Shown here in pieces: positions 1-26,746 of a stretch of 64,000 bases of DNA. Every line of letters begins with the position of its first letter. Within the stretch, counting starts at the first letter, position 1. Source of the stretch: a virus; IMG/VR virus record IMGVR_UViG_3300009158_000034, positions 1-64,000 of that record. One strand, given 5' to 3'. The position numbers were made by a program, and so were the translations under genes. Below the pieces are notes generated by a model, which ran no database searches, was not told where the DNA came from, and saw nothing but the letters and a program-made list of their open reading frames with translations.

Positions 1-49
1 AAGTTGATCGCTCAATGGTAGACAGGTTTAATTCCTGTTAGGTGCACCA
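1..49 (+). tRNA. tRNA 3' end, cut by window edge
   Basis: The T arm (ACAGG, 7-nt loop, CCTGT at 22-38), the 3' acceptor strand TAGGTGC, discriminator A and encoded CCA are visible. The anticodon lies upstream of the window, so the identity is unknown. The T loop reads TTTAATT rather than the usual TTC start, and about 14 nt separate the likely anticodon stem from the T arm. Confidence 0.6.
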
Positions 50-239
50 AGTTTTGTAAGTGTGTATGTTGAGAAAGCATGGTGTCGAAAGCCATGTGAG
101 AGAATGGTACGAGTCCAACAAAATTGCAACGCTCAAGTATCAACTATTACTACGTACCTCTATCCTGTCGGCCGCTTTAAAGAAAATACAGGTAGAATGG
201 TAGCAATGAGTGAGGTGCTACTACTTACAAATTAATCAT
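50..239 (+). ncRNA. Structured RNA spacer 1 between tRNAs
   Basis: This 190-nt gap holds no convincing ORF. A 9-bp stem (TTTGTAAGT at 53-61 with ACTTACAAA at 223-231) closes it. Internal hairpins are visible at 77-97 (GCATGG/CCATGT), 160-195 (CTATCCTGT/ACAGGTAG) and 200-221 (GTAGCA/TGCTAC). It resembles the spacers at 446-602 and 1822-1933 in design, but not clearly in sequence. The function is unknown; it may be a stable RNA or just a folded tRNA precursor spacer. Confidence 0.35.
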
Positions 240-313
240 GCGGGGTTCGTAAAATGGCATTACCTTAGCCTTCCAAGCTAAAGTCAGGAGTTCGATTCTC
301 CTACCCCGCTCCA
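240..313 (+). tRNA. tRNA-Gly(TCC)
   Basis: The acceptor stem is GCGGGGT/ACCCCGC, the anticodon loop CTTCCAA sits in a TTAGC/GCTAA stem, and CCA is encoded. It reads GGA codons. Confidence 0.95.
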
Positions 314-319
314 TAATGT

Positions 320-348
320 TTGACATATATCTATCAATGATATATAAT
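320..348 (+). promoter_or_regulatory. sigma70-type promoter
   Basis: TTGACA at 320-325 and TATAAT at 343-348 are separated by 17 nt. Transcription would start near 355, just before tRNA-Leu(TAA), so this promoter probably drives the following part of the tRNA array. Confidence 0.8.
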
Positions 349-361
349 AGTGAAATGAAAT

Positions 362-446
362 GCGACTGTGATGAAATAGGTAGACATAGTAGACTTAAAA
401 TCTACCGCCGAAAGGTGTACCGGTTCGATTCCGGTCAGTCGTACCA
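362..446 (+). tRNA. tRNA-Leu(TAA)
   Basis: Acceptor GCGACTG/CAGTCGT, anticodon TAA in a GTAGA/TCTAC stem, a long variable arm (CGCCGAAAGGTG region) and encoded CCA identify a type II tRNA-Leu reading UUA. Confidence 0.95.
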
Positions 447-602
447 TAATATAGTGTATTCTTGTCAAAATGTTATAGGGATATAGCCTACCCTATATAT
501 AAAAGAAAGTGCTGCATATATAGATTACTTTGAATAATCTATGAACGAGGATGCACCACAAGGTACGGTGTTATGACATACACTGGGAGTATACTATATT
601 AT
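446..602 (+). ncRNA. Structured RNA spacer 2 between tRNAs
   Basis: No gene is visible here. The ends pair in a long stem: 446-464 (starting ATAATATAGT) with 584-602, about 19 bp including several G-U pairs. Inside are hairpins at 474-497 (TATAGGG/CCCTATA), 522-540 (AGATTA/TAATCT) and a CACC/GGTG hairpin near 553-569. A multibranched RNA closed by its own ends is the simplest reading. The outermost base overlaps the 3' A of tRNA-Leu. Confidence 0.4.
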
Positions 603-609
603 GGTAATT

Positions 610-686
610 GCCTTCATAGCACAATTGGTTAGTGCAAACGACTCATAATCGTTAGGTTACTGGTTCGAGTCCAGTTGAAGGCACCA
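610..686 (+). tRNA. tRNA-Met or tRNA-Ile (CAT)
   Basis: Acceptor GCCTTCA/TGAAGGC, anticodon CAT in an ACGA/TCGT stem, and encoded CCA. The 1:72 pair is a normal G-C, so it is not an obvious initiator. It could be elongator Met, or an Ile tRNA read as AUA if lysidine-modified; the sequence alone does not decide. Confidence 0.9.
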
Positions 687-721
687 GATATTACGGAGAG
701 TGACAGTTTATGCAACTGTAG

Positions 722-729
722 CATAAATA
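722..729 (+). promoter_or_regulatory. T4-type late promoter candidate
   Basis: CATAAATA matches the T4 late -10-like element TATAAATA at 7 of 8 positions. It lies 18 nt upstream of the endonuclease-like gene start at 748. Confidence 0.45.
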
Positions 730-747
730 CATTCATAGGAGATTGAC

Positions 748-1191
748 ATGAATGTAAATGAAAAAGGTACTGTAGGTCTGATTGAGGTTATCAGAGACCT
801 AACAAAAAAAGGATATGAGTGTTTTACCCCAATTCACGACTATAGCAAAGTAGATTTGATTGCGATGGCTAATTCTTGGGAAACATTTAAGATTCAAGTA
901 AAGTATCGGACTACTTTTAGGAATAGAATAGAAGTAGGTTTTAACTCAGTAGTCAATGGGAAAAAAGTCCCGATGGATTTGACTGCAATTGACGGGTGGG
1001 CAATTTATTGTCCCGAGTTAGATAAAGTCGTTTATGTTCACAAGAGTGAAGTAAACATAGAATTAGGTGGCTTTAGTTTTAGATTAGAGCCGGGAAAAAA
1101 CACATTCAATACTAGCGACGGTAAGACTAGATTGAAATTGTTTGATGAATACGGAGATGTGGCCGAGTGGTCTAAGGCAGCAGGTTGCTAA
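748..1191 (+). CDS. PD-(D/E)XK homing-endonuclease-like protein
   Basis: This is likely a DNA endonuclease of the group-I-intron-associated PD-(D/E)XK type (I-Ssp6803I fold). The expected acidic and basic residues line up: E13 in the first helix, D36 in VDLIA, then Q50-V-K52. The start has a good ribosome site (TAGGAGA) 7 nt upstream. The frame has no stop before the next gene and runs 39 nt into tRNA-Ser(GCT), so the last 12 residues (GDVAEWSKAAGC) are tRNA sequence. I-Ssp6803I itself lives in a tRNA intron, so placement within a tRNA array fits a tRNA-targeting mobile nuclease (inference). It is free-standing here; no intron is evident. Confidence 0.75.
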   Translation: MNVNEKGTVGLIEVIRDLTKKGYECFTPIHDYSKVDLIAMANSWETFKIQVKYRTTFRNRIEVGFNSVVNGKKVPMDLTAIDGWAIYCPELDKVVYVHKSEVNIELGGFSFRLEPGKNTFNTSDGKTRLKLFDEYGDVAEWSKAAGC

Positions 1192-1244
1192 CCTGTCGTG
1201 TCAAGTAATTGGCACCGTGAGTTCAAATCTCACCGTCTCCGCCA
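1153..1244 (+). tRNA. tRNA-Ser(GCT)
   Basis: Acceptor GGAGATG/CGTCTCC, anticodon GCT in a CAGGT/ACCTG stem, a long variable arm, a T arm with TTCAAAT and encoded GCCA. Its 5' part doubles as the 3' end of the upstream endonuclease gene. Confidence 0.95.
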
Positions 1245-1266
1245 AAGATTTTTAACAAGGAAAAAT

Positions 1267-1428
1267 ATGAAACCAAACAAGACTTTTAAAATGAGTAAGT
1301 CATTCAAACGATTGACTAGGACACTACCATTCAATACTGGTGATCAACGACATGCATTCAAGCGAATGATGATTGATGCTCAATTGATGGGTGGAGTACG
1401 CCCGGCTAGAGAAAAGTCAGAGAAATAA
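1267..1428 (+). CDS. Small basic protein, unknown (53 aa)
   Basis: The start at 1267 has an AAGG ribosome site 5-9 nt upstream (1257-1261). A longer frame begins at 1198, but that part is only tRNA-Ser sequence. The product is Lys/Arg-rich, with KTFKMSKSFKRLTRTLPF near the N terminus. I recognise no domain. It sits between tRNA-Ser and tRNA-Cys. Confidence 0.6.
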   Translation: MKPNKTFKMSKSFKRLTRTLPFNTGDQRHAFKRMMIDAQLMGGVRPAREKSEK

Positions 1429-1431
1429 TAT

Positions 1432-1509
1432 GTAGGGATGGCGGAGCGGCCCAACGCAACTGTCTGCAAAACAGTAACACCGCGAGTTCAAATCTCGCTC
1501 CCTACTCCA
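1432..1509 (+). tRNA. tRNA-Cys(GCA)
   Basis: Acceptor GTAGGGA/TCCCTAC, anticodon loop CTGCAAA in an ACTGT/ACAGT stem, discriminator T and encoded CCA. Confidence 0.92.
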
Positions 1510-1517
1510 AGTAAAGG

Positions 1518-1546
1518 TTGACAACAAACCTAAATTGTTGTATAAT
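1518..1546 (+). promoter_or_regulatory. sigma70 promoter with inverted repeat
   Basis: TTGACA at 1518-1523, a 17-nt spacer and TATAAT at 1541-1546 are perfect consensus. An inverted repeat ACAACAA-N7-TTGTTGT fills the spacer and touches both hexamers. The same arrangement recurs at 5033-5061, which suggests a shared operator. Confidence 0.85.
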
Positions 1547-1573
1547 AAATTTTTTAACGAAAGAGGTAATGAC

Positions 1574-1597
1574 ATGAAACGTTCAATGAAACGATAG
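1574..1597 (+). other. Possible 7-codon leader ORF
   Basis: Downstream of the 1518 promoter, an AGAGGT ribosome-like site precedes ATG and six more codons (MKRSMKR) before TAG. It is too short to judge. The 1598-1664 stretch after it holds nothing else I recognise except possible pairing around GGTTTAGGG. Confidence 0.2.
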
Positions 1598-1664
1598 TGT
1601 CATTCTTAAACCCCATGTATTGGTTTAGGGATGGCACATTAAAGACAAATTTAATACTGCTTGT

Positions 1665-1739
1665 CCCTTCAAGATGTTACGGTAGCATAGCGGACTCTTA
1701 ATCCGACAAGACTCAGTTCAATTCTGAGTGGAGGGACCA
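1665..1739 (+). tRNA. tRNA-Lys(CTT)
   Basis: Acceptor CCCTTCA/TGGAGGG (one T-G pair), anticodon loop CTCTTAA in a 4-bp CGGA/TCCG stem, T arm CTCAG/CTGAG and encoded ACCA. The fifth anticodon-stem pair is a mismatch, so this is a slightly degenerate tRNA. Confidence 0.8.
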
Positions 1740-1745
1740 ATATAT

Positions 1746-1821
1746 GGGGTTATGGTGAAACGGTTATCACAGCAGACTTTTAATCTGCCAGTTCCGAGTT
1801 CGAATCTCGGTGGCCCTACCA
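1746..1821 (+). tRNA. tRNA-Lys(TTT)
   Basis: Anticodon TTT in a GCAGA/TCTGC stem, T arm CCGAG/CTCGG and encoded ACCA. The acceptor GGGGTTA/TGGCCCT contains three G-U type pairs. Confidence 0.9.
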
Positions 1822-1933
1822 TATAAGAACACATTCAACGGCAAACAGGATACCTGGCAACTGGACGCAGGGGCTATCCCAAAGATGTAGGGCACTACCA
1901 CCGTAAAGTCAGGAAATGAGTGTGTTCCTATAT
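1822..1933 (+). ncRNA. Structured RNA spacer 3 between tRNAs
   Basis: A 112-nt non-coding spacer has ends forming a 17-bp stem: 1821-1837 (ATATAAGAACACATTCA) with 1917-1933, one mismatch and one wobble. An inner ACGG/CCGT pairing and a CCTG/CAGG hairpin are also visible. The 8-mer AACAGGAT at 1844-1851 is complementary to the conserved ATCCTGTT of the repeated RNA elements at 2050, 2421, 5080 and 5265. Function unknown. Confidence 0.4.
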
Positions 1934-1954
1934 GATGACTAAATAAAGAATAAT

Positions 1955-2044
1955 GGAAGATTGGTCGAGTGGTTTATGGCTCTAGTCTTGAAAACTAGCG
2001 AATCTTAAAAGGTTCCGTGAGTTCGAATCTCACATCTTCCTCCA
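1955..2044 (+). tRNA. tRNA-Ser(TGA)
   Basis: Acceptor GGAAGAT/ATCTTCC, anticodon TGA in a CTAGT/ACTAG stem, a long variable arm and encoded CCA. Confidence 0.95.
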
Positions 2045-2049
2045 AGTTA

Positions 2050-2113
2050 AGGATCGGTTCAGCAAATTTTATACATTTGACTTTTAATCAAAACCGTAAA
2101 AAACGATCCTGTT
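2050..2113 (+). ncRNA. AGGAT-ATCCTGTT RNA element, copy a
   Basis: AGGATCG at the 5' end pairs with CGATCCT at the 3' end, followed by GTT. Next to the stem is GTTCAGCAAA; the loop is A/T-rich, and AACCG in it can pair with CGGTT. Three other copies lie at 2421, 5080 and 5265. The two inner stem pairs change together between copies, which supports a real RNA fold. I do not recognise a known RNA family. Confidence 0.55.
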
Positions 2114-2115
2114 AT

Positions 2116-2190
2116 ATCTCCCTGGTGTTAGCGGCAGCACATCGGTCTCCAAAACCGCAAGGCAAGGTTCAAATCCTTGGGGGGATGCCA
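2116..2190 (+). tRNA. tRNA-Trp(CCA)
   Basis: Acceptor ATCTCCC/GGGGGAT, anticodon CCA in a CGGT/ACCG stem, T arm CAAGG/CCTTG, discriminator G and encoded CCA. Confidence 0.92.
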
Positions 2191-2200
2191 AAGAATAAAT

Positions 2201-2285
2201 GCCCTGGTGGCGAAATTGGTAGACGCACCAGATTTAGGTTCTGACGCCGAAAGGCGTGTCGGTTCGAGTCCGACCTAGGGCACCA
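2201..2285 (+). tRNA. tRNA-Leu(TAG)
   Basis: Acceptor GCCCTGG/CTAGGGC, anticodon TAG, a long variable arm with CGCCGAAAGGCG, T arm TCGG/CCGA and encoded CCA. Confidence 0.95.
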
Positions 2286-2298
2286 CAAAAACTCGCCT

Positions 2299-2334
2299 TG
2301 ACTGATGGCGTATAATGAGATAAGTAATCAGTCA
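2299..2334 (+). other. Intergenic stem-loop
   Basis: TGACTGAT pairs with ATCAGTCA (8 bp) across a 20-nt loop. TTGACT and TATAAT are present but only 7 nt apart, so they are not a normal promoter. It may be an RNA processing hairpin ahead of tRNA-Ala. Confidence 0.3.
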
Positions 2335-2341
2335 CGAATTC

Positions 2342-2415
2342 GGGGGATTAGTATAATGGGATTACGGCAGCTTTGCAAGCTGTTTATGAGAGTTCGATTC
2401 TCTCATCCTCCACCA
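2342..2415 (+). tRNA. tRNA-Ala(TGC)
   Basis: Acceptor GGGGGAT/ATCCTCC, anticodon loop TTTGCAA in a CAGC/GCTG stem, T arm GAGAG/CTCTC and encoded ACCA. Confidence 0.94.
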
Positions 2416-2420
2416 AGTTA

Positions 2421-2481
2421 AGGATGCTTCCAGCAAATAAAACAAACTTTTATTATCAAAAAAGCAAAACAGCATCCTGTT
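2421..2481 (+). ncRNA. AGGAT-ATCCTGTT RNA element, copy b
   Basis: The terminal stem is AGGATGC/GCATCCT followed by GTT, with TTCCAGCAAAT after the 5' strand and an A-rich 3' half containing AAAAAAGC that can also pair with GCTT. It is nearly identical to copy d at 5265. It lies between tRNA-Ala and tRNA-Val(GAC). Confidence 0.55.
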
Positions 2482-2485
2482 AAAT

Positions 2486-2562
2486 GCGTGATTAGTTCAG
2501 CATGGAAGAACGCTACCCCGACACGGTAGAGGTCAAAAGTTCGAATCTTTTATCACGCACCA
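2486..2562 (+). tRNA. tRNA-Val(GAC)
   Basis: Acceptor GCGTGAT/ATCACGC, anticodon GAC in a CTACC/GGTAG stem, T arm AAAAG/CTTTT and encoded ACCA. Confidence 0.93.
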
Positions 2563-2569
2563 AGAACAA

Positions 2570-2577
2570 CATAAATA
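2570..2577 (+). promoter_or_regulatory. T4-type late promoter candidate
   Basis: CATAAATA lies 3 nt before the next tRNA gene. It is a 7-of-8 match to TATAAATA, but could be chance in AT-rich spacer. Confidence 0.3.
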
Positions 2578-2580
2578 TAT

Positions 2581-2659
2581 AGCGGAGTGGGGGAGTATGG
2601 TCGTCCCCGCTAGTCTCATAAGCTAGAGAACGGTGGTTCAAATCCATCCTCCGCATCCA
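2581..2659 (+). tRNA. tRNA-Met(CAT), initiator-like
   Basis: Anticodon CAT in a CTAGT/GCTAG stem, T arm GGTGG/CCATC and encoded CCA after discriminator T. The acceptor pairs GCGGAG with CTCCGC, but positions 1 and 72 are A and A. An unpaired 1:72 is a hallmark of bacterial initiator tRNA. The three G-C pairs typical of initiator anticodon stems are absent, so the role is uncertain. Confidence 0.8.
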
Positions 2660-2664
2660 ATACT

Positions 2665-2901
2665 ATGACAGATTACGTATTAGCTTTTTTAGCAATGTTC
2701 CTTACTGATGTTTTTTACACGTACTACCTAAAGGCAGTGCAAGATGAACAAGCATTAAGAGCAAGTAGCTGGGCAACAATCATATATATTGTTGCAGCCT
2801 TTGCAATCATAGAGTATAATACTAATCATCTGTTATTGATTCCAGCAGCACTTGGTGCGTTTTGCGGCACGTTTGTTGGAATGAAGTTGAGAAAGAAATA
2901 A
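2665..2901 (+). CDS. Small membrane protein, unknown (78 aa)
   Basis: Three hydrophobic segments are visible: residues 4-21, 36-48 and 55-73, with a Lys/Arg-rich end (KLRKK). This suggests a small inner-membrane protein. It starts 5 nt after a tRNA without an obvious ribosome site. No family recognised. Confidence 0.6.
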   Translation: MTDYVLAFLAMFLTDVFYTYYLKAVQDEQALRASSWATIIYIVAAFAIIEYNTNHLLLIPAALGAFCGTFVGMKLRKK

Positions 2902-2948
2902 TTCGGAGTGTGGTCGGAGACTAAAAATCTCAATAATTGTCCTCCGAG

Positions 2949-2956
2949 CATAAATA
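2949..2956 (+). promoter_or_regulatory. T4-type late promoter candidate
   Basis: CATAAATA lies 5 nt before the ATG at 2962. A T4-type late start would fall almost on the start codon of the HNH gene. Confidence 0.4.
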
Positions 2957-2961
2957 GATGT

Positions 2962-3543
2962 ATGGAACTCATACAATATCAAAATAATGACGGGACTTTT
3001 ACTAGTCCCAAAAACGGAAAAATATATAAATCATTGAAGGCTTTTAGAGCGCATTGGTTTAACAATCCGGCTGGAGCAGGTTTTAAAGGATTAAATCTTA
3101 TAAAAAAAGATTGTCAATATTGCTCAAGCAAATATGGATTGTCTAATTTAAAAAGACATGAAGAAAAATGTTATTTGAATCCTAAAAATATAAGAGAATG
3201 CTTACATTGTAGTAAACCTATTAAGGATTATGTAGGTTCAAAGGGCACATGTAGTAGAAGTTGTGCTAACAGCTTTTTTAAAGTAGGTGAGAATAATGGA
3301 AATTTCAAAGGTGATTCATATCAATTTCTTTGTTTTTCTAATCATAAAAAAGAATGTATAGTGTGTGGAGAAAATAAAATTGTTGCGGTTCATCATTACA
3401 ACGAAAACCACGAGGACAATAGAATTGAAAATTTAGTTCCCTTGTGCCCCACACATCATCAATATATGCATAGTAGATATGCAGAAGAAATTAGACACAT
3501 AGTTGATAACTATGTAAATACATTTATACTCCGGTTCGCCTAA
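2962..3543 (+). CDS. HNH homing-endonuclease-like protein
   Basis: The C-terminal part carries an HNH module: ECIVCGENK, then VHHYNENHEDNRIENLVPLC, then HHQYMHS. It has the paired cysteines and His-His/Asn/His pattern of metal-dependent nucleases. Upstream cysteine pairs (CQYC, CLHC and CSRSC) look like zinc-binding DNA-recognition knuckles. A KNGKIYKSLKAF segment near residue 20 resembles a nuclease-associated DNA-binding repeat. The frame extends upstream to 2908, but that part has stem-loop character, so the start at 2962 is preferred. The stop codon lies 15 nt inside tRNA-Pro. It is probably a mobile nuclease acting at tRNA loci (inference). Confidence 0.8.
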   Translation: MELIQYQNNDGTFTSPKNGKIYKSLKAFRAHWFNNPAGAGFKGLNLIKKDCQYCSSKYGLSNLKRHEEKCYLNPKNIRECLHCSKPIKDYVGSKGTCSRSCANSFFKVGENNGNFKGDSYQFLCFSNHKKECIVCGENKIVAVHHYNENHEDNRIENLVPLCPTHHQYMHSRYAEEIRHIVDNYVNTFILRFA

Positions 3544-3607
3544 TCTGGTTATGGCACTTGCTTTGGGAGCAAGAATAATGTGAGTTCAAATCCCACACTG
3601 GAGACCA
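3529..3607 (+). tRNA. tRNA-Pro(TGG)
   Basis: Acceptor CTCCGGT/ACTGGAG, anticodon TGG in a CTTGC/GCAAG stem, T arm with TTCAAAT and encoded ACCA. Its first 15 nt overlap the end of the HNH reading frame. Confidence 0.94.
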
Positions 3608-3623
3608 AGTAAAGGAATATGTT

Positions 3624-3812
3624 ATGAGTAAAGGTAGTAGACCAAGACCATATAGTGTTAGTCAAAAAGAATATCTAGATAAGTTTGATGCAATCTTTCG
3701 CAAGCCCTCACCTAGAGAGATTGAGGATGCCCAAATAGAGCAAGAAGCATTTGACAAGATAGAAGAAAAGATGTATACTGCAAAGATAGAAGGAGATAAA
3801 CAATGCAAGTAA
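3624..3812 (+). CDS. Small charged protein, unknown (62 aa)
   Basis: An AAAGGAA ribosome site lies upstream. The product is hydrophilic with an acidic helix-prone middle (REIEDAQIEQEAFDKIEEK). It overlaps the parvulin gene by 10 nt, so the two are probably translated together. No domain recognised. Confidence 0.65.
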   Translation: MSKGSRPRPYSVSQKEYLDKFDAIFRKPSPREIEDAQIEQEAFDKIEEKMYTAKIEGDKQCK

Positions 3813-4072
3813 GAGCAAAACATATTTTAGTAGAATCATTGAACACCGCAGTAACTTTAAAAGAAAAGATTGCGATGGGAGAAGATTTTGGTGCATTAGC
3901 AAAACTTCATAGCAAGTGTCCGAGTGGACAGAATGGTGGAGATTTGGGAATGTTTAGTCGTGGACAGATGGTAAAGCCGTTTGAAGATGTTGCGTTTGGT
4001 AGTGATGTTGGCCAAGTAAGTGGCCCAGTACAAACACAATTCGGTTATCATTTGATTCAACGAACAGGATAA
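3803..4072 (+). CDS. Parvulin-type peptidyl-prolyl isomerase
   Basis: This is a single-domain PpiC/parvulin rotamase, 89 aa and close in size to E. coli PpiC. Family signatures are the N-terminal RAKHILVES, the central CPSGQNGGDLGMFSRGQMVKPFE and the C-terminal QTQFGYHLIQ. There is no signal peptide, so it should act in the cytoplasm as a folding helper. Ribosome site GAAGGAG precedes the start. It lies between tRNA-Pro and tRNA-Val. Confidence 0.93.
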   Translation: MQVRAKHILVESLNTAVTLKEKIAMGEDFGALAKLHSKCPSGQNGGDLGMFSRGQMVKPFEDVAFGSDVGQVSGPVQTQFGYHLIQRTG

Positions 4073-4079
4073 AAATTTT

Positions 4080-4154
4080 GCCTCGTTAACTCAGCGGTAG
4101 AGTAGCGCCTTTACACGGCGAATGTCGGCGGTTCAATCCCGTCACGAGGTACCA
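4080..4154 (+). tRNA. tRNA-Val(TAC)
   Basis: Acceptor GCCTCGT/ACGAGGT, anticodon TAC in a CGCC/GGCG stem, T arm with TTCAATC and encoded ACCA. Confidence 0.93.
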
Positions 4155-4163
4155 GGTTAGTAA

Positions 4164-4237
4164 GCGGGTATGATGTAATGGTAGCTTGTGACCTTGCCAA
4201 GGTTAGCGTGAGAGTTCGATTCTCTCTACCCGCTCCA
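4164..4237 (+). tRNA. tRNA-Gly(GCC)
   Basis: Acceptor GCGGGTA/TACCCGC, anticodon GCC, T arm GAGAG/CTCTC and encoded CCA. It complements the TCC tRNA-Gly at 240. This is the last tRNA of the array. Confidence 0.94.
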
Positions 4238-4247
4238 AAGATAAATT

Positions 4248-4802
4248 ATGGCACATCAACAACAATTTGATTTTATTCAAACATTGAAAACAAAATATCC
4301 ATCACACTTTGCTAATGCAAAGGTGTTAGAGGTAGGTAGTCTCAATATCAATGGGTCAATACGACAATTCTTCACTGAGTGTGATTACTTGGGAATTGAT
4401 GTTGGCCCGGGACTTGATGTTGATTTAGTTTGCGAAGGTCAAAAATTATATCATCCAGATGAAACGTATGATACAGTTGGCAGCTGTGAATGTTTTGAAC
4501 ACAATCCATATTGGGTAGAGACATTTGTCAATATGCATAGGATGACTAAACGTAATGGTCTAGTGTTTATGTCTTGTGCTACAACAGGTAGAGCCGAACA
4601 CGGTACTACTCGTACTAGTCCACAAGATAGTCCATTGACAGTTACGAATGGTTGGGAATATTATAAAAACTTAACCGAACAAGATTTTAGAAAACATATT
4701 TTTTACATGGATATTGACAAAATGTTTAGTGAATATGAATTTATAGTGGGTGCGCCGCATCCCGATTTATATTTCTATGGCATTAAAAAGGAGATAGTAT
4801 GA
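4248..4802 (+). CDS. SAM-dependent methyltransferase
   Basis: A class I methyltransferase fold is indicated by motif I VLEVGS at residues 26-31, an acidic strand end (YLGIDVGPG) near 46-54, and the GSCECFEH segment near 80, typical of the Methyltransf_11 group. The substrate is unknown; small molecules, sugars or nucleic acids are all possible. The stop overlaps the omega-subunit start by 4 nt (ATGA), so the two are translationally coupled. Confidence 0.8.
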   Translation: MAHQQQFDFIQTLKTKYPSHFANAKVLEVGSLNINGSIRQFFTECDYLGIDVGPGLDVDLVCEGQKLYHPDETYDTVGSCECFEHNPYWVETFVNMHRMTKRNGLVFMSCATTGRAEHGTTRTSPQDSPLTVTNGWEYYKNLTEQDFRKHIFYMDIDKMFSEYEFIVGAPHPDLYFYGIKKEIV

Positions 4803-5017
4803 CTGAAAGCAGAGCAAGATACACTAGCCAAGAGGCTGTAGAGATGATTGGTAATCGATTTGATATGGTTCTAATCGCTTGCATTAGAGTAAGGGAACTC
4901 AAGCGTGGTCATAGGCCTAAACTTGATAATCCTTTAAAGGCAGGACCCACAGTGGTTGCACTGATGGAAATTGAAAAAGGCCTAGTAGGCCGAGAATATC
5001 TTAAACAAGTAAGATAA
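4799..5017 (+). CDS. rpoZ: RNA polymerase omega subunit homologue
   Basis: The 72-aa product resembles bacterial omega along most of its length. It has ARYTSQEAVEMIGNRFDMVL at residues 6-25, matching the omega core (E. coli has AVEKIGNRFDLVL), then an Arg-rich helix, PTVVALMEIEKGLV near 50-63, and a short C-terminal helix. Omega binds the beta-prime subunit and helps assemble RNAP, and in some bacteria mediates ppGpp sensing. A phage copy would be placed to remodel host transcription (inference). An AAGGAG ribosome site and an ATGA overlap with the methyltransferase mark the start. It is shorter than E. coli omega (91 aa) and lacks the acidic tail. Confidence 0.88.
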   Translation: MTESRARYTSQEAVEMIGNRFDMVLIACIRVRELKRGHRPKLDNPLKAGPTVVALMEIEKGLVGREYLKQVR

Positions 5018-5032
5018 GTTACCCAAAATGTA

Positions 5033-5061
5033 TATACAACAACTGGATGTTGTTGTATAAT
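5033..5061 (+). promoter_or_regulatory. Promoter with overlapping perfect palindrome
   Basis: TATAAT at 5056-5061 has a weak -35 (TATACA) 17 nt upstream. A perfect 9-bp inverted repeat, TACAACAAC-TGGAT-GTTGTTGTA (5035-5057), fills the space. Transcription would begin near 5068, just before the structured RNA at 5080. The palindrome matches that at 1518-1546 in sequence and position. Confidence 0.65.
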
Positions 5062-5079
5062 ACACGTATTGAAGATTAA

Positions 5080-5251
5080 AGGATAGGTTCAGCAACACTA
5101 TATTACTATAGGCTGATTTACTTTCTCTGTTATTAACTGGAGCCTGAAAGGGCGTTGAAGGTTGGTAACAATGCGTAAGCAAGGATCGTATTTCTAGAGG
5201 AGTTTCGATAAGTCTCCTCAATAAAAACAAAAAGTAGACAACTATCCTGTT
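5080..5251 (+). ncRNA. Large structured RNA, copy c; candidate Ro60 partner
   Basis: The terminal stem AGGATAG/CTATCCT and flanking GTT match the other three elements, and GTTCAGCAA follows the 5' strand. Here the loop is expanded to about 140 nt with hairpins CTATA/TATAG, GGCT/AGCC, GCGTTG/CAATGC and GAGGAG/CTCCTC. The last has TTCGATA in its loop, recalling a tRNA T loop. A promoter ends 19 nt upstream and a T-rich run follows. Bacterial Ro60 proteins usually sit beside a Y RNA with end-to-end stem and tRNA-like module. This RNA lies directly before a Ro60-like gene, so a Y-RNA role is plausible but unproven. Confidence 0.5.
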
Positions 5252-5264
5252 ATTTTTTATATTT

Positions 5265-5321
5265 AGGATGCTTCCAGCAAATTTTAAACTTTTATTGAAA
5301 AAAAGCAAAAAGCATCCTGTT
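5265..5321 (+). ncRNA. AGGAT-ATCCTGTT RNA element, copy d
   Basis: Stem AGGATGC/GCATCCT plus GTT, with TTCCAGCAAAT and an A-rich 3' half, nearly the same as copy b at 2421. It ends about 15 nt before the ribosome site of the Ro60-like gene, so it may act as a 5' UTR regulatory element or as a separate small RNA. Confidence 0.55.
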
Positions 5322-5349
5322 GCATAATACACACAGAAAGGAGAAAACT

Positions 5350-6768
5350 ATGCAATTCGCAAACGCAATTTTAAACCAAGAGGCTCGTACCACTAATGGT
5401 ATGAAGGCTCGTCAATCAACCGCTAACGCATGTGTTGATTTGTTCTATAACATCGGTGCAAGCCGTGGTAAGAACATCATCCCGCAATTCACTGCGGCTT
5501 ATGTAGAAAATGCAGACCTAGCATTGCGTATCGTCCAATGGGCGCGTGATGTTCGTGGTGGTGCAGGTGAACGTGAATTGTTCCGTCAAGTCATGTTGCA
5601 CTTGGAAAAGACTAACCCAGCTGATGCTGTCCGTCTTATGTCTAAGGTGCCAGAACTTGGTCGTTTTGACGATTTGCTAGTTTTCCAAACCAGCGATATG
5701 AAGGCTAATGCCTACACTTTGCTTGGTGACTACTTGCGTCAAAGCAACGGTCTTGCTGCTAAGTGGACTCCACGTAAGGGCGTGATCGCGGCTGAGATCC
5801 GTGACTTCTTCGGTATGACTCCAAAGCAATATCGTAAGACTCTTGTTGGTATGACTACTGTCGTTGAAACACAAATGTGTGCAAATGACTGGGATAACAT
5901 CAACTACAGTCACGTTCCAAGTGTAGCGCATAGTCGTTACAAGAAGGCTTTCGGTCGTCATGGTACAACTTATGTTGAGTACATCAACAAGTTGGTCAAG
6001 GGTGAGGCAGGTGTGAAGATCAATGCTAACGCAATCTTCCCACACGATGTGTTGAAGGGCCGTATCACTGGATATGGTTCAGCATTAAACTGGTCTAAGA
6101 CCGAGTTGGATGCAATCGAAGCACAATGGAATGCATTGCCTAACTACGTTGGTGACGCTAATGTGTTGCCTCTAGTTGACGTTAGTGGCTCTATGACCAG
6201 CAAGGCTGGCACAAAGGGTGACACTACTTGCCTAGAAATCGCAGTTAGTTTGGGATTGTATTTTGCTGATAAGAACAAGGGTAAGTTCAAGGACTGTTTC
6301 TTGACTTTCAGCGACAAGCCAAAGTTGATGAACCTCAAGGGGCCTATCAACAAGAAGATTGACCAAATGGTCAGTTCTGATTGGGGCATGAGTACAAACC
6401 TACATGGTGCGTTCACTCAAATCCTTGACACTGCTGTCAAGAACAAGGTTTCACAAGCAGAAATGCCTGAGACACTGATGATTTTCTCTGACATGCAATT
6501 TAACGCTTGCGTTAGGTATGATGACAGTGCGATGGAAATGATTGCTCGTAAGTACGCCGAAGCAGGTTACGATTTGCCTAAGGTAGTTTTCTGGAACTTG
6601 AATAGTAGCGGAAACGCTCCAGTCAAGTTCGACAAGGGCGGTACCGCTCTCGTGTCAGGATTCAGTCCAGCAATCGCTGCTAGCGTATTGGGTGCAGACC
6701 CAGATGCATTCAGCCCAGAGGCTATCATGCTCAAGGCTGTGATGAACAGTCGCTACGATTTGATGTAA
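5350..6768 (+). CDS. Ro60-like TROVE/vWA RNA-binding protein
   Basis: The product is 472 aa. The N-terminal helical part (about residues 14-230) begins with TTNGMKARQSTANACVDLFY and contains RDVRGGAGERELFR and LGRFDDLL, typical of the TROVE/DUF2828 group related to Ro60. The C-terminal part (from about 275) is a von Willebrand A domain with an intact metal site, DVSGS, plus a downstream FSDMQF. Ro60 proteins form rings that bind Y RNAs and misfolded RNAs in RNA quality control. The start at 5350 has a strong AAGGAG site; an upstream in-frame ATG at 5320 falls in the RNA element and is disfavoured. The upstream elements c and d are candidate RNA partners (inference). C is common at third positions, which suggests high expression. 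Confidence 0.85.
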   Translation: MQFANAILNQEARTTNGMKARQSTANACVDLFYNIGASRGKNIIPQFTAAYVENADLALRIVQWARDVRGGAGERELFRQVMLHLEKTNPADAVRLMSKVPELGRFDDLLVFQTSDMKANAYTLLGDYLRQSNGLAAKWTPRKGVIAAEIRDFFGMTPKQYRKTLVGMTTVVETQMCANDWDNINYSHVPSVAHSRYKKAFGRHGTTYVEYINKLVKGEAGVKINANAIFPHDVLKGRITGYGSALNWSKTELDAIEAQWNALPNYVGDANVLPLVDVSGSMTSKAGTKGDTTCLEIAVSLGLYFADKNKGKFKDCFLTFSDKPKLMNLKGPINKKIDQMVSSDWGMSTNLHGAFTQILDTAVKNKVSQAEMPETLMIFSDMQFNACVRYDDSAMEMIARKYAEAGYDLPKVVFWNLNSSGNAPVKFDKGGTALVSGFSPAIAASVLGADPDAFSPEAIMLKAVMNSRYDLM

Positions 6769-6784
6769 CAGTCAATGATTCAAA

Positions 6785-6809
6785 CAATGCCCGGTTCGTC
6801 CGGGCATTG
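6785..6809 (+). terminator. Strong hairpin after Ro60-like gene
   Basis: CAATGCCCGG pairs perfectly with CCGGGCATTG (10 bp) across a TTCGT loop. No U tract follows, so it may be an RNA-stabilising 3' hairpin or a factor-assisted terminator. Confidence 0.6.
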
Positions 6810-6816
6810 CCATATC

Positions 6817-6845
6817 TTGACAAATAATGGTGAAGGTGATATAAT
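6817..6845 (+). promoter_or_regulatory. sigma70 promoter, leaderless type
   Basis: TTGACA at 6817, 17-nt spacer, TATAAT at 6840-6845. The spacer starts AATAATGG, a variant of the repeated WTAAATGG box. The predicted +1 falls on the ATG at 6852. Confidence 0.85.
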
Positions 6846-6851
6846 ATGTCT

Positions 6852-7160
6852 ATGCGTAAATTAAGCGAGAACGGAAAAGTAGCAGTATTATACAGCCCTG
6901 ACTTTGGTGCAGGATGGTACACATGGAATCAAGACCATCCAGAGATATTGTTCGACCCTGCAATGGTAAAACTTGTAGAGAAGGGACAGTATGATGAATT
7001 GGCTACTTATGTAGAATTGAAGTATCCTGGCATATATACAGGTGGATTGAGTAATTTGCAGGTAGAATGGATAGAAGAAGGTAAAAAATTCCGTGTAGTA
7101 GAATACGACGGTGATGAAAGTATACAAGTAGAAGATGATATAGATTGGATGATAGCATAA
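6852..7160 (+). CDS. Unknown acidic protein (102 aa)
   Basis: An earlier ATG at 6846 abuts the -10 box and would not be transcribed, so 6852 is chosen. This makes a leaderless mRNA without a ribosome site. The product is acidic, with an aromatic N terminus (GWYTWNQDHPEILFDP) and a C-terminal VEDDIDWMIA. No family recognised. It overlaps the next gene by 1 nt. Confidence 0.65.
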   Translation: MRKLSENGKVAVLYSPDFGAGWYTWNQDHPEILFDPAMVKLVEKGQYDELATYVELKYPGIYTGGLSNLQVEWIEEGKKFRVVEYDGDESIQVEDDIDWMIA

Positions 7161-7381
7161 TGTATAAAGTAAAGACAAAAGAACAACAACAAGAATTTTT
7201 ATCATTAGATTTGGCTATGGAATATGCCAAGCTAATCAATGAGTTCGTAACCATCAGTGGTGGCGAGTTTGAGATTGTAGGACGATTCGGTGTCGATAGT
7301 GTGATAGATGGAAAGACTCCTGATGGAGTAGCATACACTTGGAACAAGGCAAGCAGAATCGGCCGAGTAAAAAGGAACTAG
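7160..7381 (+). CDS. Unknown protein (73 aa)
   Basis: The start overlaps the upstream stop (TAATG). A helix-forming N terminus (KEQQQEFLSLDLAMEYAKLI) is followed by a beta-rich end (GGEFEIVGRFGVDSV). No domain recognised; probably co-transcribed from the promoter at 6817. Confidence 0.65.
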   Translation: MYKVKTKEQQQEFLSLDLAMEYAKLINEFVTISGGEFEIVGRFGVDSVIDGKTPDGVAYTWNKASRIGRVKRN

Positions 7382-7384
7382 TAT

Positions 7385-7519
7385 ATGGCTAATAAAAAAC
7401 AAGGTAATCTGACAGGTCCACCACAGTGGTGGAAGCACTTAAAAGATTGGAAGCGAGTGTTCTGGAAAACAGAACGACAAGCACAAAAGAAAGATATCTC
7501 TAAAAGAGAAAAGGAATAA
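7385..7519 (+). CDS. Small basic protein, unknown (44 aa)
   Basis: An AAGGA ribosome site is spaced correctly from ATG. The product is Trp/Lys-rich (PPQWWKHLKDWKRVFWK) and ends one base before the phosphoesterase start. The tight packing in the operon supports it as a real gene. Function unknown. Confidence 0.6.
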   Translation: MANKKQGNLTGPPQWWKHLKDWKRVFWKTERQAQKKDISKREKE

Positions 7520-24041: not shown

Positions 24042-26224
24042 TATGCATAAGCCTGAGCATAAGAACCATACCAGTTACTACCATCAGCTACGAAAGTTAA
24101 TATGTCAACTGCTGATGCTGTTGAAGTTATAGTAGGTGCAAGACCATTTGGCCATTTAACACTAGTGAACGTAGCTGTAGTCATACCTGTTGCTGCTTGT
24201 GTCAACTTAAGTATAAATGATTTTCCTGCTGTAGCAGTTGGCATAGTAAATGTACATGGAGTACTTGCAGTTAATGTAGCTGTAAGAACAGTACCGGCTG
24301 TTAATGATAATGTTGATGTAGCACCAACAGTACCTACTGCTTGTAATGTTTCTGTATAGTTAGTAACTGTTGGGTTGTTAGCTATACCAGTGATACTTAA
24401 GTTACCAACACTTAAATTACCAGTAACACTTAAACTAGTTAATGTTCCTGTGCTAGTGATATTTGGTTGTGCTGCTGTTGTTACAGTACCTGCAGTAGTT
24501 GCTGCACCGGATAATGCACCGGTAAATGTTGTTGCACTTACATTACCAGCACTGATATTGCCACTAACATATGCTGTACCTGTAACACTTAGTGTATTGG
24601 TTGGGGCTGTATTAGCAATACCTACATTACCATCTGATTGAATACGCATTTTTTCTGAACTATTGGTAGAAAACACCATTGGGTATGCGCCGTCAGAATA
24701 TAATACTCTTCCATTTGCGCCTGCTGCAAATGCGCCACCTATTGAAGTATCTATACCTATAAAAAAGTTACCACCACCAGTACTGACTTGCAATGCGGAT
24801 TGTGCTGTTGTTGCTGAGTTAATTCTTGCATAGGTTGCGCTTGCTGAATATACTTCAAGTAGTCTACTTGGCGTACTAGTACCAATACCCACATTGCCAT
24901 CACCTTGTATACGCATACGCTCTGATACGGTTGAAGGATAAGCCCCGCTTCCACTATAAAATCCTAAATTAACACTACCTTCTTGATTGGTGCCGTCATT
25001 AAATCCAACGATAGAACCAACTGCTCCTCTACCTGAAATTGGTCTAAATGTCAATGCAACACCATAATTACTACCCGTTGTTCCTGGTTGTTCTGCTGTT
25101 AATGTTAATGCTGATATAGTTTTTATATTTGCAGTGTTTATGGTAGTTAACGTTCCATAACTAATAGTTGCTTTACTTTCAACACTAGATGTTCCAATAC
25201 TCACGTTACCACTAGTGGTACTAAATAACGAATTACCAGTAACCGTTACACTTGATAATGAACCTGTGCTAGTAATATTTGGTTGTGCTGCTGTTGTTAC
25301 AGTTCCGGCTGTACCTGATGTTGCTACATTCAAGTTAGCTACTTGTGTAGTACTTGTTACTACGAAAGGAGCAGTACCTGTAGCCAATGTTGTAATATAT
25401 TGACCAGTAATGTTACTAGTAGTACCTGTGTAATTTGTTGCGCTTACGTTGCCAGCACTTATATTACCGGTAACAGTCAATACACTAGTTGTTTTATTAA
25501 ATGTTAGATTAGCATTGCCATTTGCAGCACTTGCATCATTAAATATGATTTGTGTATTACTACCAGCTACTGGACCAGTAGCACCCGTTGCGCCTGTCGA
25601 TCCGATTGTACCTGTTGCCCCAGTTGCGCCTGTACTACCTATTGTGCCTGTAGCACCAGTTGCTCCAGTTGCACCTGTACTACCTATTGTGCCTGTAGCG
25701 CCAGTTGCGCCAGTACTACCTATTGTACCTGTAGCTCCAGTAGCACCAGTAGATCCAATCGTACCTGTTGCTCCAGTTGCACCCGTTGCGCCTGTACTAC
25801 CTATTGTGCCTGTAGCACCAGTAGCACCTGTAGTGCCTACTACGCCAGTCGCGCCAGTTGCACCTGTACTTCCAATATATCCTGTGGCACCAGTTGCACC
25901 TGTAGTGCCTACTACGCCAGTCGCGCCAGTTGCACCTGTACTACCTATTGTACCAGTAGCGCCCGTCGCTCCAGTTGCACCTGTACTACCAATCGTACCT
26001 GTAGCACCTGTTGCCCCTGTACTACCATTTGTACCTGCCGTACCAGTAGCACCTGTTGCGCCAGTACTACCATTTGTTCCGTTATTGCCAGTAGCGCCCG
26101 TAGCACCTAAACCAGTAGCACCTGTACTTCCTTGATAGCCAGTAGCGCCCGTAGCACCTTGATCACCAAGTGCTGCTGGTTCCCATTGACTAGTGGTAGT
26201 GTTATAATATTTTAGTACTGACAT
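24041..26224 (-). CDS. Collagen-like tail fibre protein 1 (727 aa)
   Basis: The N-terminal anchor [20 protein letters not shown] is followed by Gly-X-Y repeats of the [12 protein letters not shown] type to about residue 218. The body then has strand repeats ([40 protein letters not shown]) and a C-terminal head. The same anchor starts the fibre genes ending at 28114 and 31497. Probably a trimeric fibre with a collagen-like shaft and host-binding tip. The + strand reverse frames rich in PVAP are shadows of the repeat. Confidence 0.85.
25575..26160 (-). repeat. Collagen-like coding repeat, fibre 1
   Basis: Imperfect 9- and 18-bp units encode Gly-Ala-Thr-Gly-Ala-Thr-Gly-(Thr/Tyr/Val)-(Ile/Val)-Gly-(Ser/Thr)-Thr. 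Codon choice varies between units, which limits slippage but still gives long near-identical stretches to the other fibre genes. Confidence 0.85.
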
Positions 26225-26246
26225 TTAATTATTTCTTTGTTTTATA

Positions 26247-26254
26247 TATTTATT
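26247..26254 (-). promoter_or_regulatory. T4-type late promoter candidate
   Basis: Leftward AATAAATA, 22 nt before fibre 1. Confidence 0.55.
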
Positions 26255-26255
26255 G

Positions 26256-26528
26256 TTATTCATTTACAAAAATGTTAACAAAAACTGTATTATCTTCTAA
26301 TGCTTCAATCTCATGCCATTCATTTGCTGCAAGGTCAATTGGTTGTGTATGTTTATCTATAACTTTTTCACGACCTTCTTTACGCAAAATACAACTTCCT
26401 GCGTTGCATACAGTAGCATGAGAAAATGTATGCTCATGTCTTGGTAATCCTTCTCCTTTGTTGGCATGGTAAACATTGAATGATGTTCCATTGTAATTAA
26501 ACAGATGTGTTGGGCCAATGTTGATCAT
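26256..26528 (-). CDS. Small cupin-like protein (90 aa)
   Basis: A single cupin barrel is suggested by RHEHTFSHATVCNAG (His-x-His, then His) and a later NEWHEIEAL, the usual two metal-binding motifs. It lies between fibre genes and could be a virion decoration, an assembly factor or a sugar-modifying enzyme. It overlaps the upstream gene by 1 nt. Confidence 0.65.
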   Translation of the reverse strand: MINIGPTHLFNYNGTSFNVYHANKGEGLPRHEHTFSHATVCNAGSCILRKEGREKVIDKHTQPIDLAANEWHEIEALEDNTVFVNIFVNE

Positions 26529-26746
26529 TAGAAACTCTGTAAGCCGTTATTTGGTAATATTATTTGTGTAATGTCAGTACGTTTTTTTATTGTACCATCT
26601 TTAAAATACCAATAGTCTGCGATTACATCATCTGTACATTCTGTCCAGTAGGTAGGATCACCTACCGGAAATACAACTTCTTCAACTTGTGCAACACGAT
26701 AACCATCTAATATAGGTTCATTGGGGCAAATCAATGCATATTTCAT
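26528..26746 (-). CDS. Unknown protein (72 aa)
   Basis: Contains YALICPNEPILDGYRVAQVE and DYWYFKDGTIKKRT, a type often found beside phage tail-fibre genes. Function unknown; coupled to the cupin-like gene. Confidence 0.6.
   Translation of the reverse strand: MKYALICPNEPILDGYRVAQVEEVVFPVGDPTYWTECTDDVIADYWYFKDGTIKKRTDITQIILPNNGLQSF

Follow-up and report, generated by a model that had tools for sequence, protein, structure and literature searches.

We describe a likely phage counterpart of the Ro60–Y RNA particle, encoded near the start of the virus record IMGVR_UViG_3300009158_000034, of which bases 1–64000 (hereafter the window; the whole record has 171,004 bases) were analyzed. Its parts are a gene at 5350–6768, whose product is predicted to adopt the Ro60 fold, and a family of RNA elements closed by a short end stem and carrying the word CAGCAA just inside it, two of which lie directly before the gene. 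We consider it probable that the product is a Ro60-type ring protein of the DUF2828–DUF7788 branch and that the CAGCAA RNAs are its dedicated ligands, the phage equivalents of Y RNAs; binding between the two is our inference. A Ro60-fold protein with a cognate-looking RNA family had already been proposed in an earlier note on this DNA, from which the diagnostic word CAGCAA is absent, and the proposal is now supported by the protein fold, by co-occurrence of gene and RNA, and by a module that resembles the one of the bacterial Y RNA (YrlA), scored below the YrlA cut-off, in the CAGCAA elements of phages EA1 and LeBron.

A predicted Ro60-fold protein outside TROVE

In Pfam, the protein of 5350–6768 matches DUF2828 (PF11443, 1.3e-28) and DUF7788 (PF25043, 9.4e-46), and the annotation of its PHROG_850 family is "RNA-binding protein". 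A search with hmmscan up to E 10 listed only DUF7788, DUF2828, HTH_AraC, and VWA_2, with no match to TROVE (PF05731) or to the Ro60 vWA domain (PF25045), which rules out TROVE membership by sequence; NCBIfam returned nothing for three family members. The earlier note had read the gene as encoding a TROVE/vWA protein with an intact metal site. The metal site stands, its MIDAS residues (D277-x-S279-x-S281, T349, and D381) being invariant in 22 diverse homologues, and the Ro60 fold is recovered by comparison of the predicted structure; the Pfam assignment to TROVE has to be replaced by DUF2828 plus DUF7788.

An AlphaFold2 model was built from 20 homologues (predicted local distance difference test score, pLDDT, 69.6; predicted template modeling score, pTM, 0.50). 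Its best match in the PDB is Ro60 of Thermus phage phiLo, with Z-scores of 15.9 and 15.5 over 386 and 383 residues, respectively, and Rsr is matched with Z 12.2. The top ten PDB rows, drawn only from Foldseek's own candidates, are all Ro60/TROVE proteins (Z 15.9–11.0), several of them over 348–386 residues, and non-Ro vWA proteins enter at Z 11.0. At E ≤ 0.001, Foldseek reported only 9kop (2.0e-7) and Rsr (3.1e-7), and four of the six weak matches that a profile of the 22 homologues found in the PDB are TROVE/Ro60 chains (best E 0.013). On the predicted structure, the product is a Ro60-fold protein of a separate DUF2828–DUF7788 sequence branch: it shares with Ro60/Rsr the whole-length fold (several entries at Z 15.9–11.0) and the combination of a helical part with a vWA domain bearing a MIDAS, and differs from them in having DUF2828 and DUF7788 in place of a TROVE or vWA_Ro60 match. 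The family is present in 673 phage records and in 335 IMG/VR stretches, 80 of which were kept for analysis.

An RNA family defined by an end stem and CAGCAA

The four copies in the window follow one plan: a 7-bp end stem, three nucleotides, CAGCAA, a variable middle, the closing strand, and GTT. Each 5' arm consists of AGGAT and two further bases, matched by ATCCT in the closing arm before the GTT; between arm and CAGCAA stands a spacer of three bases, reduced in copies with a longer stem. One copy, of 172 nucleotides (nt), has a long interior, and the other three have short ones. The 172-nt RNA (5080–5251; fold z −3.56) and the 57-nt element (5265–5321) that the earlier note had described are both confirmed as closed by AGGAT.../...ATCCT, and the stem copies it had noticed in the tRNA array were found at 2050–2113 and 2421–2481.

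The word CAGCAA emerges without being specified. When the pattern "stem7-N3-hexamer...stem7rc-GTT" was searched in 98 sources (the window and loci L001–L097) with the hexamer left free, CAGCAA filled 108 of 554 distinct plus-strand contexts and the runner-up word 7, while on the minus strand every word stayed at 3 or fewer of 421 contexts. Similarly, across the gene loci and window 1–7500, CAGCAA was the most enriched of 3882 hexamers after a 7-nt arm with an exact downstream complement: its 587 occurrences include 252 distinct contexts of this kind, compared with a mean fraction of 0.083 (standard deviation 0.033) and with 36 of 376 on the minus strand; here eight loci of the window's own record (L099–L106) were included, and contexts were de-duplicated and occurrences were not. 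In the gene leaders, of which 75 sources (74 of the 80 IMG/VR loci and the window) yielded 53 that were distinct, CAGCAA occurs within 160 nt in 45, and all seven pairs (G-U allowed) form at fixed geometry in 44 of these 45 versus 5 of 45 with the arm reversed, counts that come from related and hence non-independent sequences.

The arm sequence itself varies, with 58 distinct arms among the CAGCAA contexts. In the 175 contexts with CAGCAA three nucleotides inside, arm position 2 is G in 165 and the GTT tail is present in 118. For covariation analysis, 57 non-redundant short elements were reduced by eight apparent in-gene matches and locus L023, one row was swapped for a window near-copy, and two window copies were added, giving an alignment of 50 rows (A3); removal of five rows gave the 45-row alignment A4, from which the covariance model R1 was built. 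The covariation claimed in the earlier note holds: both-side changes occur in all seven stem pairs of A4, whose rows were picked by pairing, so that 100% pairing is by construction and only the variety of pairs is informative, and in 9 of the 19 pairs of a 114-nt type described below. R1 recovers the three short window copies (2050–2113, 2421–2481, and 5265–5321). A looser regular expression with a 5-bp stem is noisy (10 plus-strand and 8 minus-strand hits in the window, 2–9 in each of ten Markov sequences), and all claims rest on the 7-bp stem or on R1; a looser element list has 268 plus-strand against 74 minus-strand entries, about a quarter of which may be chance. The CAGCAA elements are one RNA family: a covarying 7-bp stem joins their ends, CAGCAA lies in most cases three bases within that stem, the interiors differ widely in length, and the 3' side usually carries GUU.

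No Rfam family matched the window's elements at threshold, and the gathering-level Rfam matches in eight phage loci were tRNA and tmRNA (transfer-messenger RNA) only. A preQ1-II identity of the leader was rejected, the match reaching 22.8 bits against the required 47 (E 0.14) and lying mostly on the Shine–Dalgarno (SD) sequence. Two further forms were noticed. Several loci, among them L028 (4706–4912) and L053 (4677–4915), hold a second long class of CAGCAA RNA, about 190–260 nt, with GACCAGAAAATAAA near its 3' side, located between the tRNA array and the gene. In L236 and L238 the sequence AAGGAATAATT(G/A)CAGCAAATT stands immediately 3' of the gene with no obvious closing strand, and may be a variant form.

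The RNA tends to travel with the gene

A covariance search with the element family, a check suggested in the earlier note, largely separates virus records with and without the gene. Run over whole records, R1 matched 17 of 18 gene-bearing records (best E per record 3.2e-14 to 9.8e-6), including seven of the eight that contributed nothing to its training (Ahp1, DLP_6, KVP40, Ci1, Astolliot, pEa_SNUABM_19, and phiM12). At E < 1e-3 it matched none of eight control phages that gave no match to the protein profile (T4, D29, S-PM2, P-SSM2, RB69, SPO1, 44RR2, and rv5); at E ≤ 1 three of these were matched, the best at 0.008. Comparison of the unseen gene-bearing set with the gene-less controls gives a Fisher p of 0.0014. 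In the reverse direction, 11 of 13 contigs longer than 80 kb that were chosen by one RNA variant carry the gene; the 13 come from the stretches listed, part of 120, and one of them (G010) was already a gene locus.

The association extends to bacterial assemblies, where the gene was found on 11 contigs. At E < 0.02, R1 gave eight matches in seven of them (three Roseiflexaceae, Anaerolineae, Alphaproteobacteria, one bacterium bin, and Aphanothece), and no tRNA is present in the examined flanks of 9 of the 11. Of six whole assemblies of 3.1–5.4 Mb, for each of which the best 150 candidates were scored, three have a single R1 match at E ≤ 0.05, situated on the strand of the gene at distances of about 0.3, 0.8, and 4.3 kb, and three have none.

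The number of R1 matches per record ranges from 0 to 10, and positive phages belong to hosts or groups as distant as Salmonella, mycobacteria, Listeria, Staphylococcus, Enterococcus, Campylobacter, Aeromonas, Vibrio, rhizobia, and cyanobacteria. The RNAs adjoin the gene in the window and in many other loci. Taken together, the CAGCAA RNA shows a strong tendency to travel with the DUF2828–DUF7788 protein branch. RNA ligase genes are found within 5 kb of the gene in 3 of 17 phage loci (L085, L089, and L095). As a separate observation, Synechococcus phage BUCT-ZZ01 has a tmRNA-like gene (L081 1728–2128; matches to RF01850 and RF04321) at a place where the record table lists only coding sequences.

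The 172-nt RNA and its relation to bacterial Y RNAs

The RNA at 5080–5251 folds at −48.7 kcal/mol (z −3.56), and none of 200 shuffled sequences was equally stable. Fifteen relatives of this upstream RNA in its 114-nt form share three helices with 99.3% of cells paired, and both-side changes are seen in 9 of 19 pairs, versus 0–1 when the alignment is slid. In the window RNA, the UUUCGAU loop of one hairpin looks like a T-loop. The comparison with YrlA that the earlier note had suggested fails for this copy, because the YrlA model (RF02553) finds no match in window 4990–5360 even at E < 10; a YrlA identity of the 5080–5251 RNA is ruled out, and the T-loop-like hairpin is the only resemblance.

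Elsewhere in the family, the likeness to YrlA goes further. The Rfam YrlA model runs T-arm, acceptor hairpin, D-arm, and two CAGCAA elements of Enterococcus phage EA1 (L093 3585–3705 and 3400–3524) fold as end stem, T-arm, acceptor hairpin, and D-arm. The model matches the EA1 elements at E 3.5e-9 (45.9 bits) and 2.9e-6 (35.8 bits) in a 471-base stretch, and an element of mycobacteriophage LeBron (L094 5483–5607) at E 1.3e-7 (39.8 bits) in a 311-base stretch. Neither the two EA1 matches nor the LeBron match reaches the YrlA gathering score of 69, and as a background 111 of 274 genomes match at E ≤ 1e-3, only 2 of them above the cut-off. This module was not found in the window's copies. ARAGORN, run on the rejoined halves of the three tRNA-like interiors, called a tRNA at 12 of 51 cut points for EA1 3585 and at 0 of 55 for each of the other two; since such calls were mostly absent, we relied on the YrlA model instead.

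CAGCAA RNAs and YrlA (with Ro60/Rsr) have in common an end-to-end stem that closes a module and a position adjoining a Ro60-fold gene; in the window, 5080–5321 lies directly before 5350, and an element likewise stands beside the Ro60-family gene in L093, L094, L095, and L231. The EA1 and LeBron RNAs also appear to share the order of T-arm, acceptor hairpin, and D-arm. They differ in the outer stem, which in CAGCAA RNAs is 7 bp long with CAGCAA inside and the usual GUU tail and is not the YrlA stem. R1 has no match at three loci with YrlA-like RNAs, nor within 5 kb of two true TROVE-type phage Ro genes (phiLo and Alone3), whose proteins do match Pfam TROVE. A weak YrlA-like match 5' of the Alone3 Ro gene (33.8 bits) is given little weight in view of the background. 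Going by these two TROVE loci, a division of handles is possible, in which the DUF2828 branch would use stem plus CAGCAA and the TROVE branch the YrlA stem, with an exchangeable head. Passages of two earlier papers mention phage Ro/TROVE proteins and YrlA in phages (PMC7824862, PMC7765460).

Three other RNAs were noted in this connection. A manA-like RNA (L254 5986–6218; 47.8 bits, gathering score 55.2) adjoins the Ro-like gene of Streptomyces phage Alone3. In Aeromonas phage LAh_8, a tRNA call of 117 nt (L089 961–1077) has TTACAGCAACCC at the place of the anticodon arm and may be a tRNA-like head attached in the reverse arrangement. The stable RNAs C and D of T4 resemble the CAGCAA RNAs in being stable RNAs of a phage tRNA array; on reading they lack the CAGCAA-stem signature, and T4 has neither an R1 match nor the gene, so they were rejected as relatives.

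Transcription and virion data from Listeria phage CKA15

Parts of a study of Listeria phage CKA15 bear on both components. Its passages report the orthologue CKA15_055 among the proteins of purified virions (57.1% coverage) and three very highly transcribed non-coding regions at most 2 kb 5' of its gene; the authors matched the protein to Rsr by HHPred and raised Y RNAs among other options (PMC12282133). In the corresponding record, OR088597, we find three CAGCAA elements in the unannotated gap before CKA15_055, after a promoter-like TTGACA-17-TATCAT site. It is plausible that one of the unannotated regions of strong transcription coincides with this gap; of the transcribed regions, those passages place only 26,236–26,727. 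The putative Y RNAs of CKA15 are comparable to ours in accompanying a protein of the same family and in being transcribed non-coding regions 5' of the gene; they differ in that the passages define no motif, structure, or RNA family and in that the region they place is not a CAGCAA RNA. That region falls within an RNA of about 530 nt (L231 2040–2572, CKA15 about 26,203–26,735), which has a 10-bp end stem followed by TAACATAAT; a related stretch in L095 has no gathering-level Rfam match.

Resemblance to Dictyostelium Class I RNAs

Among Rfam families, the leader hairpin scores best against RF01414, the Dictyostelium Class I RNA (E 0.0052). In 26 whole phage records, this model gave 17 matches at E < 0.01, and 15 of these coincide with R1 elements; the top one is window element 2421–2481 (E 9.6e-6, 33.8 bits), and LAh_8 has six R1 elements matched in this way. 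The gathering score of 41.5 was reached in none of the 26 records, and the one match at E < 0.01 in W08 is a non-R1 element. With E < 0.01 as the threshold, records with a match number 9 of 18 among those bearing the gene and 1 of 8 among those lacking it; at E ≤ 10, the model has matches in 8 of 14 well-known control genomes. According to PMC7919456, Class I RNAs are about 60 nt long and have a covarying 6-bp end stem, an invariant 5' G, an 11-nt motif beside the 5' strand, a variable middle, and conserved ends AAG and CUGU; they are reported as unique to dictyostelids, and the protein named there as binding them is Rnp1A, with an RNA recognition motif.

In the Rfam consensus (CCUUACAGCAA), the 11-nt motif ends with CAGCAA, and the phage consensus keeps the order of parts: an A-G start, CAGCAA, a variable middle, and a C-U-GUU end. 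The two differ in that all phage matches stay below the gathering score and phage interiors can be far longer, and in that Class I RNAs are eukaryotic and bound by Rnp1A rather than by a Ro protein. The resemblance suggests a shared RNA family or convergence on a shared protein type. It is conceivable, though we lean against it, that a single ancient family unites the CAGCAA RNAs, as Y RNAs of the DUF2828–DUF7788 Ro branch, with the amoebal Class I RNAs, which would likewise be ligands of a Ro-type protein. A literature search joining Class I RNA, Y RNA, and Dictyostelium found nothing.

Layout of the locus

Along the window, a 16-gene tRNA array (240–4237) is followed by small open reading frames (ORFs) and the ORF at 5350–6768; the features are collected in Table 1. 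The leader element ends 28 nt before the start codon of the gene and is probably a protein-binding, autoregulatory copy. The earlier note had given the 172-nt RNA a promoter-like site of its own; such a site is present, agreeing in 10 of 12 bases, and is weak evidence, as a background test found three promoter-like sites where 1.3 (standard deviation 1.3) are expected.

Table 1. Features of the CAGCAA RNA and Ro60-fold protein locus in the window
Feature	Position	Strand	Remarks
tRNA array, 16 genes	240..4237	+	houses two CAGCAA RNAs; context, outside the proposed RNP (ribonucleoprotein)
CAGCAA RNA, 64 nt	2050..2113	+	between tRNA-Ser(tga) and tRNA-Trp in the array; R1 match
CAGCAA RNA, 61 nt	2421..2481	+	between tRNA-Ala and tRNA-Val in the array; R1 match
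Sigma-70-like promoter TATACA-17-TATAAT, 10/12 bases	5033..5061	+	5' of the 172-nt RNA; weak evidence
172-nt multibranched CAGCAA RNA	5080..5251	+	expanded core of ~114 nt with covarying helices; candidate Y-RNA-like trans RNA
57-nt leader element AGGATGC-TTC-CAGCAA...GCATCCT-GTT	5265..5321	+	R1 63.6 bits (member of the R1 training set)
Ro60-fold protein gene (predicted), 472 aa	5350..6768	+	helical N-terminal part and vWA; DUF2828–DUF7788 branch; PHROG_850

Directly 5' of the RNA elements, a 72-aa ORF (4799–5017) matches RNA_pol_Rpb6/omega (PF01192, 1.8e-10) and is possibly a phage-encoded omega-like subunit. The tRNA array also contains a PDDEXK_5 nuclease-like ORF (748–1191), a weak HNH-like ORF (2908–3543), and a PpiC-type rotamase ORF (3803–4072), as well as a spacer between tRNA-Lys and tRNA-Ser (1840–1935, CAGGATACCTGGCAACTGGACGC...) that looks structured when judged by eye.

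Proposed mechanism and alternative explanations

Ro60 grips the closing stem of Y RNAs. By analogy, the outer face of the Ro-type ring would hold the closed stem and CAGCAA of the phage RNAs, and the variable interior would act as an effector module that decides the fate of RNA ends in the ring. Such interiors would be of different kinds, a tRNA mimic in the Enterococcus and mycobacterial phages and a multi-helix structure with a T-loop-like hairpin in the window, and could either gate the ring or serve as a tether for a partner, for example an exonuclease or an enzyme of tRNA modification or repair. The tRNA-mimic head, together with the frequent neighborhood of tRNA arrays, points to quality control of tRNA or small RNA in infected cells; in this way the phage would control RNA that is damaged or misfolded, tRNA being a plausible target. 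The position of the leader copy before the SD sequence suggests feedback control of translation, in which free protein would repress its own synthesis until the RNAs are saturated. A ring function of the Ro type, RNA binding, and translational feedback are the most likely account of this phage's locus, and we infer from them a role of the RNP in RNA quality control or degradation, as the earlier note had proposed.

Several observations weigh against this reading. Staphylococcus phage Alsa_4 carries the gene with no R1 match, two of the 13 RNA-bearing contigs lack the gene in the sequence examined, and the seven unseen phages have the RNAs apart from the gene: the distance is 3–16 kb in five and about 200 kb in pEa_SNUABM_19, and in Ahp1 they lie at the opposite end of the linear record. 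R1 at E < 0.02 finds nothing in 4 of the 11 bacterial-assembly contigs (Novimethylophilus, a Chloroflexi bin, Prochlorococcus, and Flavobacteriales), and some of the gene-carrying contigs may be prophage or mis-binned phage. Among the gene-less controls, P-SSM2 has R1 matches at 42472 (E 0.008), which is antisense in a helicase gene, and at 120938 (E 0.06), RB69 and S-PM2 are matched only at E 0.5–0.7, and the RF01414 match of T4 at 132052 (E 0.0024) falls inside gene 31.2. The structural model is of moderate quality at the scores given above, with residues 172–228 below a pLDDT of 50. The large RNA of the window has no YrlA match, those of EA1 and LeBron were selected after their tRNA-like pieces had been noticed, and weak YrlA matches are common. 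Finally, the most transcribed region of CKA15, 26,236–26,727 in the passages of PMC12282133, is a different RNA, of about 530 nt, that lacks CAGCAA.

The strongest rival, which we regard as improbable, is that the elements act purely in cis, as leader hairpins for translation or attenuation, through autoregulation or ligand sensing, with no RNP acting in trans. This would account for the hairpin shortly 5' of the start codon in 44 of 45 CAGCAA leaders, and inspection by eye of L015 and L075 shows a promoter-like site, the hairpin, and the SD sequence with nothing else between. It does not account for the copies at 2050 and 2421, which sit in the tRNA array 3 kb upstream, for those 3' of the gene in LeBron, SEP9 (L096), and Salmonella phage BPS17L1 (L091), or for interiors that grow into large structured RNAs and tRNA mimics.

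Detection of CKA15_055 in purified virions, at the coverage that part of PMC12282133 gives, would fit a structural role of the Ro60-fold vWA protein in the particle, the RNAs belonging to another system; this is very unlikely in view of how RNA and gene occur together in both phages and bacterial assemblies. A still smaller chance is left to the view that the elements serve phage tRNA arrays as processing or spacer signals and the gene merely lies near such arrays: two of the four window copies are indeed between tRNAs, and tRNAs are near the gene in many phage loci, yet no tRNA occurs in the examined flanks of six of the seven R1-positive bacterial-assembly loci (E < 0.02), and the gene-less T4 and D29 have tRNA arrays with no R1 match. 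Least probable of all is a small mobile or selfish element hitch-hiking with the gene as it spreads in these phages, as short copies with conserved ends and 0 to 10 R1 matches per record might suggest, given that the structure is conserved while the sequence changes, that the plus-strand bias around the gene is strong, and that three whole assemblies have single matches near the gene.

Implications

The RNP probably formed by the DUF2828–DUF7788 protein and the CAGCAA RNAs is a system of the Ro60–Y RNA type with a newly defined RNA signature; our literature search on this protein branch found no defined RNA partner. The signature of stem, CAGCAA, and tail names candidate RNAs in many phages, and binding can be tested in ordinary laboratory phage systems. 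A YrlA-like tRNA module mounted on a different stem would show Y RNAs to be two-part devices, composed of a protein handle and an interchangeable head. The resemblance to Class I RNAs, in turn, supplies a concrete and testable hypothesis for developmentally important RNAs of amoebae.

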